This document shows, piece after piece, positions 1,442 to 12,900 of a stretch of 21,639 bases of DNA. Each line of letters opens with the position of its first letter. Within the stretch, counting starts at the first letter, position 1. Location: positions 215,228-236,866 of the forward strand of contig NW_003107096.1 in assembly GCF_000003605.2 (NCBI RefSeq), given 5' to 3'. Source of the DNA: Saccoglossus kowalevskii (Eukaryota > Hemichordata > Enteropneusta > Harrimaniidae). Below the pieces are notes generated by a model, which was given only the letters and a program-made list of their open reading frames with translations, was not told the origin of the DNA and ran no database searches. Both the position numbers and the translations under genes were made by a program.

Positions 1442-2069
1442 AATCAAAACGTAGCCACTAACACAAAACAAATACACAGTAAGGCACATAATGAACACAA
1501 AACAATATTGAAATGATTAAATAAATGGGATAGCTGAATATTCCCAAAGTCTAATTTTAAAAAGTCCCCTATGTCTGAGACAATTTTTTGCAAACAACTC
1601 ATGTCCAGCAGTTTCCCCTATGTCGGATGGACAGAATTCTAATTATACTACAATAACTCGATTTGTTGCTGTGTTTATGCAGTTTACGACACAAATATTT
1701 AATTAATACATGTTATTTGCACAAGTTTAACTGTATCTAAAAGTCCTTTGAGATACTATGACCCAACGCAGCAAAACAACTCGTCTTTTCTCTCAACGCC
1801 ACGCAATGACAGAGGATGACAACACATGATTTACTGGACCAAAAGGCAAGCAATCTGAATATTTCATAAATATTATCTTAATGCAAAAACAAACTACATT
1901 AGTACATTGTCTTAAATTGATATTATCCGTGGCTGGGATATAATAAGTACATATTGTAATACACAGATGTAATTGGTGTACAAATGTATATATTTTTCAT
2001 GTTGTAACGCCAAAGTCTCTTTTTTAAAACAGTATTTTTTTTTTTGATAATGATTACACTTTTTATTTA
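1442..2069. other. Non-coding stretch, nothing recognised
   Basis: Very AT-rich, with many short homopolymer runs (a T-run around 2034-2045) and stops in all frames. If the retroelement relic to the right was once complete, its 3' end and downstream LTR would have lain here, but no LTR boundary or second LTR copy is recognisable. Confidence 0.45.
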
Positions 2070-2156
2070 ACTATCACACTGAGTGTTGAATATCTTTATA
2101 TCAGCTTGCACAAGAACAACCCGGCTAGCACTGGCATCTACTAACAAAGAAAATTG
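2070..2156 (-). pseudogene. RNase H fragment of the retroelement
   Basis: The minus-strand frame starting at 2156 reads FSLLVDASASRVVLVQAD, which matches the start of the RT-linked RNase H domain of Ty3/Gypsy elements (pattern F.L.VDAS..G.GAVL.Q.D). One or two residues around the usual glycine/alanine are missing. The catalytic-type Asp in VDAS is retained. It continues with IKIFNTQ, comparable to the family's YFSKKFN.HQ, before a stop. Only about 29 codons survive, and roughly 300 bp expected between this and the RT palm are absent. Confidence 0.7.
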
Positions 2157-2349
2157 TTAATAAAAACATGGTGTACAGAGAACTTGTACCGTATATAAAT
2201 AAAGATTCAACCTTATAACAGTTGTTGACATATTTTTATTTTTTTAGTAAATTTGTGAGTGGTCTGAGACCGGATATTCAATAATGCATTTTATTTATTT
2301 TATGTATTATTAATAGCCAATAACCTGACCCATTATACATACCTATAAT

Positions 2350-2795
2350 TATATACGGCTCAACATTACTTAAGTCACCTAAACAAGCATTCATCATTTT
2401 TGCGAAATGTAGATTGGATATTTGTCATACCGAACGGCATCACCCACAACTGGTACAATGCGTCAAGAGTTTTCAAATGCATATTTTGCCCCTCCACCAA
2501 CGGAACACCGCAATAACATTTCGATTTTGTCATACGTATTTGGCGTTGCTTACCCTGTCAATACAATCATTCATGATTCTTGTTATGAGGTAATAATCTG
2601 TTTTTGTCGCCACATTTATTTTGAATTCGGTACCAAAACACAAAGCGAAGCCCCGTTAATCTGGCTAGATTCAATATTATTGTTATCCAGCACATACTCG
2701 GTCTGTATGCAGATTCAGAAGGATTTACTCGATTTGGGTTATATGCTTGATCGGTCTTCCATTGCTTATTTCAATATAGTAAATTATGGTAGTTA
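2350..2795 (-). pseudogene. Ty3/Gypsy reverse transcriptase relic
   Basis: RT motifs appear in order on the minus strand. RPIKH is the family's PIKQ-type motif before the fingers. SSQINGASLCVLVPNSK corresponds to PSQSNW.SPCVLVPK. FKINVATKTDYYLITRI corresponds to FRKVN.VTK.DSYPLPRI, followed by DCIDRVSNAKYV. WVMPFGMTNIQSTFRK is the MPFG motif region, and MMNACLGDLSNVEPYI leads up to the usual catalytic YIDD. The reading hops frame at least four times (for example near 2640 and 2480, and at an A-run near 2400), and in-frame stops occur. The YIDD aspartates are gone: sequence after PYI is unrelated. Any plus-strand open frame here (2422-2796) is an antisense artefact of this relic. Confidence 0.85.
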
Positions 2796-2897
2796 GCTAA
2801 AGATGTCTGACAATAAGCATTCATAATTTATTATTAATTTTACCAGACCACCCCTTCTTACACTATTTAAATGGCGTAGTTTTTCATCCAGATTATG
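2796..2897 (-). pseudogene. Integrase-RT linker of the retroelement
   Basis: A continuous minus-strand frame of 34 codons reads HNLDEKLRHLNSV, then a basic stretch, then LLSDIFS. From memory of fish and invertebrate Gmr1-type polyproteins, a segment of the form L.NLE..+.HL..V.R..+..L.....LFSD+P.+T directly precedes the RT domain. Its presence between the integrase tail and the RT argues that the two domains belong to one element rather than being two unrelated insertions. The frame ends at a stop just before the RT start. Confidence 0.65.
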
Positions 2898-2918
2898 TGG
2901 TGTTACTGTATTAGTTTG

Positions 2919-2937
2919 CAACAACAACAACAACAAC
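2919..2937 (+). repeat. (CAA)6 microsatellite
   Basis: Six CAA units plus a final C. It lies inside the retroelement relic between the integrase tail and the linker, so it probably expanded after the element died or within a variable linker. Confidence 0.9.
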
Positions 2938-2978
2938 TTGTTGGACTTTGTCTCTAAATTACTATATTAACTTTTTAT

Positions 2979-3800
2979 ATAAACTTTATAAATGTCTATG
3001 TGATACAATTGTGTAGCTTTTCTACGATTTAGAGTTTCTTTACATATTACACATTATTTAGGTTTTTTGATAGCTGTATGTGATATCGAGCCATCGGTGT
3101 ATTGCCTTAAATTTGCAATAATAGTGAAACCATGTCACCACAACTGAATGGACAGAAAAGCAGATTGGCTTATGCCATTACAAAAGCATGATTAAACCGA
3201 TTTCTAAACTTCGGCACATAGTCAAATTTTATCATCAACAACTTAATAAATAGACTAAAAGATCTGATCTGATTCTCTCACTGCCATACTACTTGCTGAA
3301 ACAAGTCAGAATCGTCGTCAGACTGTATTTTAGTGATTCTATAGAAGCAAAAAAATGTATTAAAGCGTTTGAAATGTTGGAAGCAATAATATTAGTATGG
3401 CTCCTAGAAATCATGCAGCAGCACACAAAACGGTTTTTAGATATGGATTACCAAATTTTGTCTTGTGCTATCACACGCCCACCTGAGATGTTCTTTTGTT
3501 CTGTTTCGCCGTTTGTTATTATTTTTCTATATATGTATTGTCATTGTCCGCCACTAAACGTTTGCATATTGTATCATTGGTTTGTCACAATTGCCGTTGA
3601 GCAATGGTTCCACATGGTCGATAAGAAATACAGCAAAATGCTTCCTCGGAAGCTAAGATACCGTTCAATGAGACGATAATTTTTTTATTGGGTTTTCCCA
3701 TCTTTTGGCAAACATGGCAAGTTTGTAATTGTTCACATGTATCATTTGCTCAAAGTATACTTATTTTGGTAAAATGAATTTGCGCGGTTTTTGCGCTGTC
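2979..3800 (-). pseudogene. Ty3/Gypsy integrase relic
   Basis: Read on the minus strand. The zinc-finger end is QTCHVCQKMGKPNKK (near 3725-3690), the C-x2-C half of the HHCC finger followed by the family's GKPN motif; the His half is only faintly visible (SAKTAQIHF, 3797-3771). LASEEAF corresponds to the P.FEEPF segment leading to the first catalytic Asp, which is not preserved. KIQSDDDSDLFQQVVWQ (near 3320-3270) matches the second core motif, Q(S/T)D.G.NF....F..V. Then QIRS, DYVPKFRNRFNHAF (the C-terminal DYV..FR.R...A helix), PMARYH and QLSKNLNNV, and finally RRKATQLYHIDIYKVY, equivalent to the DRRK...CHINMLKPY tail. Multiple stops and frameshifts make it non-functional. The plus-strand open frame at 3293-3679 is its antisense shadow. 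Confidence 0.82.
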
Positions 3801-4408
3801 ATATTCGGAATGATTTGGAGCAGCAATAAATGCCGACCATTTAATTGATAAAAATCGTGTCCAGTATATGATGTTAAATGGTCGAACTTATAGAGAAATC
3901 AGTCTCGTATTGTAAAGCATGTTTCCGGGAAGGAGAGGTATCGAGGTGGCGTGGCGTGGTGAGTAGATTTCCTCCCGGAATGCCGAGTTGGGCTTCGGTA
4001 CCGAGAGGGAGGCGGTGAATATAGTGTCGAGCGACCAACATAGTAAACCAAACTTGCGATACTGGTGCAGACGACTATGGTCGAACAACTATGATGAAAT
4101 TGTTTTTGCGTATCTGTTAATCGACTTAATTAGCTGATTACTAGCGAACGGCTGTGTTATGTCTGTCATCGTTTCAGCCCATTTGAGGTTCTGAACGGAA
4201 CTTGGTTCAGTGATTTGGAAATAATTACGAGATAACCGTCGCTATTCGGACTACTATTTCTGACAGTTAGTATTCGCAGTTATTAATACAGTGAACGATT
4301 AATCAAAAGATATGACGTGTTCAGTACTTAGTGTAATTGGCTTTATGATTGAAGGTTACGCCTTAGAGTGTTTTTACTGCTTTGTAATTGGTTAAGGTTT
4401 TGAAAGTG

Positions 4409-4414
4409 AATAAA
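4409..4414 (+). terminator. Poly(A)-signal-like AATAAA with GT-rich downstream element
   Basis: AATAAA is followed within 25 bases by GTTGTTTTAGTTGGTCTTGG, a typical GT-rich downstream element. In an LTR this would mark the U3/R end. On its own AATAAA is common in AT-rich DNA. Confidence 0.35.
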
Positions 4415-4427
4415 GTTGTTTTAGTTG

Positions 4428-4449
4428 GTCTTGGCGAGTACACCAAGAC
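4428..4449 (+). repeat. 7-bp perfect stem-loop
   Basis: GTCTTGG (4428-4434) and CCAAGAC (4443-4449) are perfectly inverted around an 8-base loop. The stem shares its GTCTTGG word with the 11-bp repeats that follow. Confidence 0.7.
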
Positions 4450-4469
4450 AGACGCAGTACAGTCTAGAG

Positions 4470-4535
4470 AGTCTTGGGCGAGTCTTGACGCAGTCTAAAG
4501 GCAGTCTTGAGTCAGCCTTTCGATAGTCTTTGGGA
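4470..4535 (+). repeat. Six tandem 11-bp repeats (AGTCTTG-type)
   Basis: Units start at 4470, 4481, 4492, 4503, 4514 and 4525, exactly 11 bases apart: AGTCTTGGGCG, AGTCTTGACGC, AGTCTAAAGGC, AGTCTTGAGTC, AGCCTTTCGAT and AGTCTTTGGGA. The first five or six bases are conserved and the rest drifts. A further AGTCTAGAG at 4461 precedes the array by 9 bases. The constant period with conserved heads is close to one DNA helical turn and could present a repeated protein-binding site on one face. Confidence 0.85.
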
Positions 4536-5071
4536 CTTTTTTCCAGGGCGCTGTGTTTATAGAGTGCTCAAAAGACCGACTAAGACGAGAGTAGAAACGT
4601 ATTTCGTTGTGTGTGTCTTATTTGACTGTAAAGTTTAAGTGACTTTCCCGATCCCGTACCTCAAGGAGATATAGCTGACCGAGACGAGTTTCCCCCCTGA
4701 CACGTGTGGAGAACCCCACGAGGCCGAAGAATTAACCCTCTCATACAACCATGAAAAATAAATGGCAGGACTTTGGTATTGCACATTCAGCGCAGAAATA
4801 AAAGACACGCCAACAGATAGACAACTAATCATTCTATTATTGGTCACATGTACCACGGATCATTTCCACGTCCTTTGTAAACACCACATACACGATGTGC
4901 CGCCATCTAATGACGGAATTAGCGGCTTCGTCTGTGCACAATCAGCGTCAACTTCATGAGAGAAACACGAAACACTTGCTAAGCCAGACCGACTGGTGGC
5001 GCCCTACTATTTTATCAATAACCAAATATACTATTATCTTGTTCCCGTATTGGACATTTGTTTATTTGCAG

Positions 5072-5252
5072 TAATTTCCAATTCTACGCCAGGTCCTTAG
5101 TAATTAATGATTCCACGTATTTATTTGGCCGTTATTTGACAGACGTAAAATGCCATAATGTTAATTCGCGGAAATTTAAACACAATGATACTGATAATGA
5201 ATTAAAAATTTGCCAAAAAATACTAAATTTGATATCCCATGGAAATAATTGA
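5072..5252 (+). CDS. Candidate 3'-terminal exon, unknown protein
   Basis: A strong acceptor-like tract, TTTGTTTATTTGCAG, ends at 5071. The frame that continues across it runs about 60 codons (NFQFYARSL..., ending ...LISHGNN) to a stop at 5250-5252. The residues look protein-like: mixed charged and hydrophobic, two Cys, one N-glycosylation-type NDS and one NDT. I recognise no family. No partner exon upstream could be joined, and the sequence before the acceptor is the GC-rich island. It could equally be a chance frame after a chance acceptor. Confidence 0.22.
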
Positions 5253-5641
5253 AATCAAAATATCTGGCAATATATTAAGTTTTGCGTCGCATGCACACGA
5301 TTGAAATATCATATAAAATGGGCCTAATATACTAAAGTTGTATTTATTTAATTGTAAGAACGAGTTTACATCCTGGAATTGCCACGATGTACTACGGATC
5401 GAATATGACGAGGATTGTAAACAACGCGATTTTTAGTTATAACTGCGTGCCATAATATTGCCTCAAAACCAGTTGAATAAAAAATTTATCAAATGCATTA
5501 ATTACATGCATTACAATTGTGTTAACTGAACAATAGCTGCGGGAATCAAATGCAATTGCACGTAATGCCCAGAAATAACAAATCCAATCGTTTTAACACG
5601 TTGAAATAAAAATATTTTGAACATTCGTATAATTAATAAAT

Positions 5642-9849: not shown

Positions 9850-11280
9850 GCAGTGACTTGTACGTGAGTAGTACAATTTTTAAGTGTATAGTGAACTGAC
9901 AGCCAAAGTAATTTACGAAGAACAAGAGTGATATGATCACATTTTTTGCCCTAATCCAGTTTAGCGGTTATAATAGAGTGAATGAGTTTAAGACTGGTAT
10001 GCTCAGATAGATGTTGGCGAATGAGTCCTTTGCGTTCGATATGCATGTATATGCTCTGGCATGTACTGATGATGTATTTACTGAACTGAAGTGAATCATC
10101 GAAGATGACACCAATGTTGCGAGCTGCCTTAACCGGTTTAACGAATGTTGATCCAATGTTGATACCATGTAAGGGATATTGAACGGATTTGCAATATCTC
10201 TGTTTTACCATCTTTTAGCTGTAGTTTGTTGTTAACCATCCAAGCCTTGATGTTAGATAGGCAATTTTCAATTTGGGATGTGGCAGCTGAAATGCTATCC
10301 TTGGTGAAAGTAAGGTAAAGTTGATTGTCATTAGACTATTGATGAAAATGAAGATTCTGGAGACTAATAATTTGACCAAGTGATGAGATGTAAATTGAGA
10401 ATAACAGGGAACCAAGTACTGATCCTTGGGGAACTCCATAATGAAGGGTTGTTTCTTTAGATGAATGACCATTAATGACAATAGACTGATGGTGAGATAT
10501 GAAGCTAGCCATTGCCAGGCGAGATCACATATGCCCATATCTGCTAGCCCTGCAAGAAGGATGTCACGGTCGATCGTGTCAAAGGCAGCAGACAGGTCTA
10601 GGAGGAAAAGGATAACATATTGTCCTGCATCAATACACATTGATATGTCATTGTGGATCTTGATGAGTGATGTCTCGGTGCTGTGAAATGTCCTGTATGC
10701 AGACTGCTGGCGACGACTTTTTCCAAAACTTTTGAAAGGAAAGGTATGTTAGAGATGGGACGGTAATTATTGAGTATTTGCTGATCAAGTGTTTTCTTCT
10801 TAAGCAGTGGTATGACAACTGCAAACTTCCGATTAGCTGGTACGAGTCCTTGTTGGAAAGATAGGTTGATGAGATACATGAGCCAGAGTATGATCTGTAA
10901 TTGAACTTTCTTCAATAAATATGTGAGAATTGGGTCAAGGCAACATGATTTAGATGGCGATTCCTTAATGATTTTCCTGTGTAGTAGTAGGCTGGAAACT
11001 TGAAAGTTGTGCAGATGTACATGTAGCATTTGAAGTAGAAATGACTGGATTATTATCATTCTATCTGCCTAATTCCAAACCGAATATTGGTGATTTTGGT
11101 GAATTCACTAAATGTATCTGATTGAGCTGAAGAATGAGTTGGCAGTGGTGATGTTTTATCAGTGGTTAAATTTGATGATAACTGAAATAGTGCTTTTTAA
11201 TTGTGAGCGTTCTCTTTAATTATATCTGAATAGTACTTAGATTTAGCATCTTCAATGAGCTTGTTAACTTTACAACAATG
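9850..11280 (-). pseudogene. LINE reverse transcriptase and C-terminal region
   Basis: In order: VNKLIEDAKSKYYSDIIKEN; KIIKESPSKSCCLDPI; NNYRPISNIPFLSKVLEKVV; motif A with the first catalytic Asp (FLLDLSAAFDTIDRDILLAG, Asp near 10598); motif B in another frame (GVPQGSVLGSLLFSIYISS, 10437-10381). The catalytic YADD box should lie at 10353-10321, but only HQ-stop-SNDNQLYL is left, so one Asp has become Asn and the box is broken. Then KDSISAATSQIENCL, VNNKLQLKDGKTE, NIGVIFDDSLQF, IRQHLSEHTSLKLIHS, a roughly 20-residue gap after AKLD, and CDHITLVLRKLLWLS. At least three frame changes occur. It cannot encode an active enzyme. Confidence 0.92.
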
Positions 11281-11432
11281 GGTACGGTAAATTTGATTTG
11301 TGAATTTCCAGTTTCGTAGTGCGCCACTTCCTTTCATGAAGTCTGCGTGTTTTCTTAGCTACCATTATGTCCGTTGTATACCAGTCTGCATTAGGGCGCA
11401 CAGTGATAAGTTGTTTATGTTGCGGTGAATGT

Positions 11433-12135
11433 TTATTTAGTAGTTTCCTGAGGCACGATTTGTAATGAGAAACAGCCAGGCAGTGGATTTGTTCTTTGTG
11501 TTGTGGGACAATACACAATTATAACTTTAAAAGTAATGCCATGGTAACGCAGAGTGACTTCAACAGCTGCAAAGATAGTAACATTCCGTAGCGGATTCCA
11601 GGTGGTGATTGTAATACTAGACTTAAATATAAATGCAATCCCTCCACAAGTTGATTTCACACGCGGAAAATGATGGTAAGTGTAACCAGCTGGTGTAACT
11701 TCGTTAATGATTGATTCATCGCCACTGTCTTTCAGCCATTTCTCTGTGATTGCAGGTGCATCAATACTATGTTCTACAATATAGTCAGAAATTAGTGTAG
11801 CCTTATTCCGAATTGAATGAACATTTCAACAACCAGGCTGGAAATGCTGATTCCGTACGTTGTGGGTGAGAATTCAGCTGACGAGTACCAGCTCTTTTCC
11901 CTCTGTGGATTGATGACTTTGACTGAATGCCTAATGATCTGATCCTATTTCGGACAGAGAGAGAGAATTTGTGCTCAATAGTACAGATGTTATTGTTCCT
12001 AATACTAAATAGATCCTTTTTAGTATAATTAATTCTCCTGAAATTTGCATGTGAATGATAATTAGTAGGAAAACGATTTCAAAGAGTCTTTTCATTTAAA
12101 CTGCTAAGTGGTGACAAGTATTTCCAAGTGTGCAT
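11433..12135 (-). pseudogene. LINE ORF2 N-terminus and APE endonuclease, internally deleted
   Basis: From 12135 the frame reads MHTWKYLSPLSSLN, a stop, then continues to FPAW at about 11835. A frame change and a stop (a likely former Trp codon) precede NVHSIRNKATLISDYIVEH and the catalytic-type Glu in ITEKWL. Next come GYTYHHFPRV, KSTCGGIAFIFKSSITI, and VEVTLRYHGITFKVIIVYCP at about 11516. In intact relatives another 120-150 residues of endonuclease (including the D..P and SDH motifs) should follow. Here the sequence jumps within about 60 bases to the post-endonuclease LLNKHSPQHK segment, so the second half of the nuclease has been deleted. Confidence 0.85.
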
Positions 12136-12477: not shown

Positions 12478-12900
12478 GCTTTCAACTAATGCATCAGAAA
12501 CCACTTCTGAAGTAATTTTCTTTAACGCTACGGCAGTTAAATTCTGGTCTTATGACATATATCACATGACCTGCAATATCTAATAAGATCATCTTGCATA
12601 CCAGGCCAATAAAACTGAATTGCTTTTCTATCTGTATTCTTCTTAGCACCCAGATGACCTAGTGCTAGTACTTGATCACGGTAACACAGTGGTACAACTA
12701 ATTGGGAAAACACTCGTCCTCTCACAACATGAGGTGACTGAAACTCTCTATACATCAGCCTCTTGTTCGTCAAAAAACCCTGCCCGATTGCTACGACCTG
12801 TGATCAACTCCTCACCTGTACTCACTAACTTCCTAGCACGCTCTAATGTGGGACCAGGCCGCTGTGCCCCTCGCACTGCATCCAATTTCTCGGAGTTTTC
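12478..12900 (-). pseudogene. Ty3/Gypsy integrase fragment of a second, different element
   Basis: The minus strand reads RARKLVSTGEELITG and AGFF, then (after a one-base shift at a T-run near 12773) LMYREFQSPHVVRGRVFSQL, VVPLCYRDQVLALGHLGAKK and IQFYWPGMQDDLIRYCRSCD followed by ICHKTR. This is the integrase zinc-finger (H2C2) region of a canonical Ty3/Gypsy pol. The two Cys of the finger are intact, but about seven residues around the first His are missing, so only one His remains. After CHKTR a frame change and loss of about 60 residues, including the first catalytic Asp, lead directly to AVALKKITSEVVSDALVES (12534-12478), the mid-core motif. No RT or LTR is attached. Its wording differs from the integrase at 2979-3800, so it is a separate family. 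Confidence 0.82.

Follow-up and report, generated by a model that had tools for sequence, protein, structure and literature searches.

A dead, probably Gmr1-like Ty3/Gypsy relic and its integrase-first relatives in the genome of Saccoglossus kowalevskii

Gypsy elements in which the integrase (INT) lies upstream of the reverse transcriptase (RT) are described as Gmr1-like in passages of several papers (PMC8220671, PMC3587641, PMC6238403). Excerpts of the literature report such elements from fish (PMC11117352), from frogs with approximately 200 copies (PMC4131045), from crustaceans as the first protostome cases (PMC3587641) and from an annelid (PMC8220671). A later annelid survey, according to the relevant passages, lists Gmr1 among five Gypsy clades present in several phyla and did not find the clade in its own analysis (PMC8556966). 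The SCAN domain has been derived from Gmr1-like elements in sections of three further papers (PMC4592553, PMC3406341, PMC3424704). Judged by these excerpts, the INT-first arrangement is unusual among Gypsy elements, yet well described in several phyla, and the word "rare" in the preliminary description of our locus was an overstatement.

The stretch of DNA analyzed here (the window, 21,639 nucleotides) corresponds to C173:215228-236866 of an assembly of 572 Mb in 4,830 contigs. By six-frame translation a relic was traced on the minus strand from approximately position 3743 down to 2130, whose pieces are spread over several frames and broken by stop codons. The peptides quoted in the preliminary description were recovered in these pieces. 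Its order of INT, INT tail, linker, RT and RNase H was confirmed by collinear matches to pieces of C3898, a fuller copy in the same genome, the RNase H being placed by order only, since 43 of 300 simulations reached its score and no match was obtained for piece 2070-2156 at E 0.5 (Table 1). About half of the residues in the matched pieces are identical to C3898. The spacing fits as well: zinc domain and tail are 690 bases apart in the relic as against 858 in C3898, tail and RT 398 as against 477 bases.

Table 1. Features of the relic and of the repeat adjoining it, in coordinates of the window
Feature	Position	Strand	Match or remark
End of INT zinc-binding domain and start of catalytic domain (CHVCQ..GKPN)	3588..3749	-	52% over 31 aa to C3898, E 5e-4 and 1.2e-4
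Possible INT catalytic core piece, weak	3343..3390	-	E 0.36 (C907), 0.63 (C3898); order right, alone not significant
INT after core	3161..3220	-	E 0.41 (whole window), E 0.027 (2000-3900)
INT tail	2979..3035	-	47% over 19 aa to C3898, E 0.02
Linker, INT tail to RT	2805..2957	-	part of joint E 3e-9 alignment; best single match C907, E 0.15
RT N-terminal part	2628..2705	-	38% to C907, joint E 1.95e-9
RT first part (TKTDYYLITRIMNDCIDRVSNAKY)	2533..2637	-	57% over 35 aa to C3898, E 3e-7
RT second part (LYQLWVMPFGMTNIQSTF), other frame	2378..2557	-	46% over 24 aa to C907 at 2470-2399
RNase H remnant (LLVDAS)	2130..2213	-	E 0.11; placed by order only
Unrelated dispersed repeat, abuts relic on 5′ side	3768..5406	.	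insertion ~4095-4744; found in 19 other loci

That the copy is dead, as had been noted before, is evident from its stops, frame breaks and small deletions. None of the nine window pieces scanned gave a match to the expected Pfam domains, which fits heavy decay, and the relic itself did not appear in the genome-wide INT and RT search results at E 0.01 because it is too decayed. RTs carry the motif YxDD; the corresponding site of the relic (piece 2281-2424) reads, by eye only, YIII. The relic has no recognisable 5′ part: a search of the whole window with the protease and gag pieces of C3898 and with the gag half of C907 yielded no hit below E 0.2, the best value for gag pieces of the two relatives being E 0.24 at a place nowhere near the relic. 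Direct repeats of at least 30 bases were not detected in the window by an ungapped search, which would miss diverged LTRs; the copy is truncated and old.

Chance likeness was ruled out for the INT and RT of the relic, while the tail, linker and RNase H were not significant alone. The score of the RT first part was reached in 0 of 300 simulations, that of the INT tail in eight and that of the linker in 57. The counterpart of the tail in C3898 lies inside a match to the Pfam model Integrase_p58_C (E 2.3e-11). At E ≤ 1, the only non-self genome matches of the piece at the zinc-binding domain were C3898 (E 0.07) and C446 (E 0.12). None of four canonical INTs matched the INT of the relic, whereas those of the C3898/C907 sublineage did. 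Taken alone, the RT second part matched other INT-first loci slightly better than C907, with its best value (E 5.7e-4) for C346. The preliminary description had named best matches of INT and RT to different families as the outcome that would speak against a single element; both pieces, the RT being taken as a whole, best matched one INT-first sublineage, the RTs compared being those of INT-first elements. In a DNA search for copies of the relic, 36 of the 37 non-self rows belonged to the neighbouring dispersed repeat (at its end, 3764-3900). The remaining row paired 131 bases of the INT region (window 3467-3594) with C1359:215339-215469 (L034) at 81% identity. Since C1359 did not match the C3898 pieces at E 1e-3 and contains a second match of 39 bases to window 3467-3505, the segment 3467-3594 could represent a short repeat of its own that lies within the relic, and not element sequence.

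The dispersed repeat consists of the parts 3768-4094 and 4745-5406, separated by an insertion of approximately 650 bases. Thirteen of the 19 fetched loci run through the repeat without it, and ten of them show an overlap of approximately 10 bases between the two sides, like a target-site duplication of the insertion. Further elements were observed in the window, both on the minus strand. An open frame at 12540-12803 encodes an INT zinc-binding domain of another Gypsy element (Integrase_H2C2, E 6.7e-12) and resembles the eight best rve loci in their INT region (E 1e-4 to 8e-7). A relic at 9951-11825 has the appearance of a non-LTR retrotransposon, with hits to RVT_1 below the curated cut-off at 10218-10748 (E 1.7e-5) and at 10601-11068 (E 0.039); the frame up to 11825 resembles an endonuclease by eye only and gave no Pfam match.

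The genome-wide search for fuller copies suggested in the preliminary description disclosed the same INT-first order in C3898, where protease, INT, tail, linker, RT and RNase H follow one another. In relatives of the relic in this genome, a SCAN-type capsid and a zinc knuckle of the CCHC type are followed by INT, tail, linker, RT and RNase H. In C3898, C3406 and C907 a protease-like piece precedes the INT, that of C3898 giving no Pfam match. Some INT-first loci possess open frames of more than 1,000 codons at the INT. The sublineage of the relic comprises C3898, C3406, C446 and C907.

To determine domain order throughout the genome, the INT of C3898 was used as one query (147 rows; 143 of 382 candidates scored) and its tail-linker-RT segment as another (150 of 152 rows listed, 143 of them extending into the RT part; 150 of 276 candidates scored). 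An RT within 1.3 kb downstream of an INT was counted as INT-first and one 0.9-2.6 kb upstream as canonical, limits that we set ourselves. As only part of the candidates was scored, the numbers of INT and RT places are lower bounds. At least 132 INT places remained after merging, 31 of them INT-first, 44 canonical, none both and 57 with neither. Identities to the C3898 INT, each the best of the merged rows and taken over differing lengths, ranged from 30 to 100% at the INT-first and from 25 to 31% at the canonical places. Among the matches listed, all 29 decided places with at least 32% identity were INT-first; the RT-before-INT copies that might have contradicted the preliminary description were thus not met with among these close relatives.

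Both kinds of element also occur in regular head-to-tail arrays of LTR elements, observed on C907 (L036, L037), C3559 (L038), C395 (L039), C1135, C1400, C4161, C4254, C4813 and others, with INTs spaced approximately 4.4-10 kb apart. Of these contigs, C907, C3559 and C395 measure only 16-24 kb. The laps of three arrays (four comparisons) were 95.6-99.0% identical and differ mostly by substitutions with an excess of transitions and few indels. We therefore lean towards real tandem arrays formed by LTR sharing, and consider multi-lap circles or noisy reads of circular DNA to be less likely. Each array unit seems to contain a single LTR, as no second repeat was found inside the C907 unit.

Trees were calculated for the INT (27 rows: 12 checked INT-first, eight canonical, seven of unknown order) and for the RT-C/RNase H region (15 rows: eight INT-first, seven canonical). 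The canonical row L004 was too short for the check and was counted as canonical, being almost identical to L001. Checked INT-first and canonical rows separated with supports of 100/100 and 100/99, respectively, a split helped by the choice of rows, since INT-first rows were included for their resemblance to C3898, and canonical rows for having the best rve scores. Unlike the tree rows, the count of domain orders rests on coordinates, its list of INTs still deriving from the C3898 query. C3898 grouped with C907 in both trees, L041 (C3406) formed a long branch in the INT tree, and several sublineages were discernible within the INT-first group in these trees of the genome's own elements.

The Pfam SCAN model matched the gag half of two INT-first families, C907 (E 2.1e-11) and C395 (E 5.5e-7); the match in C3898 was weak (E 0.053). 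A CCHC knuckle was recognised by Pfam over the cut-off in C907 (E 3e-4) and under it in C395 (E 0.0072). Genome-wide, 15 of 26 SCAN matches adjoin an INT place. Within 4 kb upstream, SCAN was found at 13 of the 31 INT-first, none of the 44 canonical and two of the 57 undecided INT places (Fisher p 1.6e-6 for INT-first against canonical, a value that is too small since the copies within a tandem array do not give independent SCAN rows). The pattern is one-sided nonetheless. The other 11 matches, without a listed INT place up to 4 kb downstream (C2675, C1001, C2268, C1437, C2298, C129, C4512, C726, C3647, C1211 and C3850:157805), are possibly solo gag relics or captured gag genes.

The order seen in the relic could have arisen by accident, if two canonical Gypsy relics had come to lie side by side or one had been rearranged. 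The window is rich in relics and contains the zinc domain of another INT (12540-12803), canonical tandem arrays in the genome place the INT of one copy before the RT of the next, and the RT half of the relic was scored against RTs of INT-first elements; nonetheless we consider such an accident highly improbable in view of the tail and linker between INT and RT with a spacing as in C3898, the INT matches to the C3898/C907 sublineage but to none of the four canonical INTs, and the uniform order in the 29 decided close relatives among the matches listed. A rearranged canonical element was rejected on the INT matches and on the order at the decided places listed over the genome. INT before RT is normal in Ty1/Copia elements, too, and domain order alone would admit the relic there. 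The chance that it belongs there is negligible, however, because the RT of its relatives found Ty3 RT as the best match in the PDB (E 7.7e-63) and, in Pfam, RVT_1 and Gypsy-type RT_RNaseH models, while the best matches of their INT were spumavirus (PFV) and Ty3 integrases. With RT and INT of the relatives being of Ty3/Gypsy type and the RT of the relic matching theirs, Ty1/Copia was ruled out. From the relatives in other parts of the genome we concluded that the INT-first order is the layout of the element family itself and not the product of a local rearrangement.

It is also unlikely that we are dealing with an INT-first Gypsy lineage that is separate from the published Gmr1 and gained its order independently. 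Such a lineage would agree with the depth of the INT-first group, which has several sublineages and INT identities to C3898 of 30-100%, and likeness to Gmr1 was judged by published descriptions. Yet the order is accompanied by a SCAN-like capsid, as passages on Gmr1-like elements describe, and the checked INT-first rows form one side of a branch against the canonical rows in both trees. The Gmr1-like assignment proposed in the preliminary description is supported by the INT-first order together with the Ty3-type RT and SCAN-like capsid of the relatives, and for these reasons we file the relic there. Very probably it derives from an LTR retrotransposon of the Gmr1-like branch of Ty3/Gypsy, of which it is a dead and truncated copy; the name of the branch is based on domain order and on the SCAN-like capsid of its relatives.

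The relic alone adds little, as it is one more dead copy of a known group published, according to excerpts, in several phyla. What is added is a genome with several INT-first Gypsy sublineages, in which domain order follows the lineage of RT and INT and does not arise by local rearrangement. The association of this order with a SCAN-like capsid, observed within one genome, is relevant to the origin of the vertebrate SCAN domain. We suggest only tentatively, and regard it as rather doubtful, that the INT-first Gypsy elements of this genome are one old and diverse branch with SCAN-like capsids, and that the sublineage of the relic branches off within published Gmr1, or is its sister, in a host group from which Gmr1 has no record so far. 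If the latter were true, the domain order would have changed earlier, and the vertebrate SCAN domain would have an older source.

Judging from the anatomy and from known LTR elements, the capsid protein would package the element RNA, the polyprotein would be cut, the Gypsy-type RT and RNase H would copy RNA into DNA and the INT would insert the DNA copy, so that only the place of INT in the polyprotein should differ from ordinary Gypsy elements. On its 5′ side the copy in the window borders on another repeat, and stops, frame breaks and small deletions mark its decay.

The canonical Ty3/Gypsy elements in this genome contain the same kinds of domains as the INT-first elements, but their RT lies 1.2-1.9 kb upstream of the INT in 44 places. 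Ty1/Copia elements have the INT-then-RT order in common with the relic and differ in their types of RT and INT, those of the relatives being Ty3/Gypsy. Unlike Gmr1-like elements as described, the copy in the window is dead and truncated. Its relatives, by contrast, resemble Gmr1 of Gadus morhua and its kin in having INT upstream of a Gypsy-type RT and a SCAN-like capsid, and the unit of the INT-first arrays (approximately 5.7-6.5 kb) is close in length to the 6.1-6.5 kb given in a section of PMC11117352 for the consensus elements Gmr1-4 of Tetraodontiformes.
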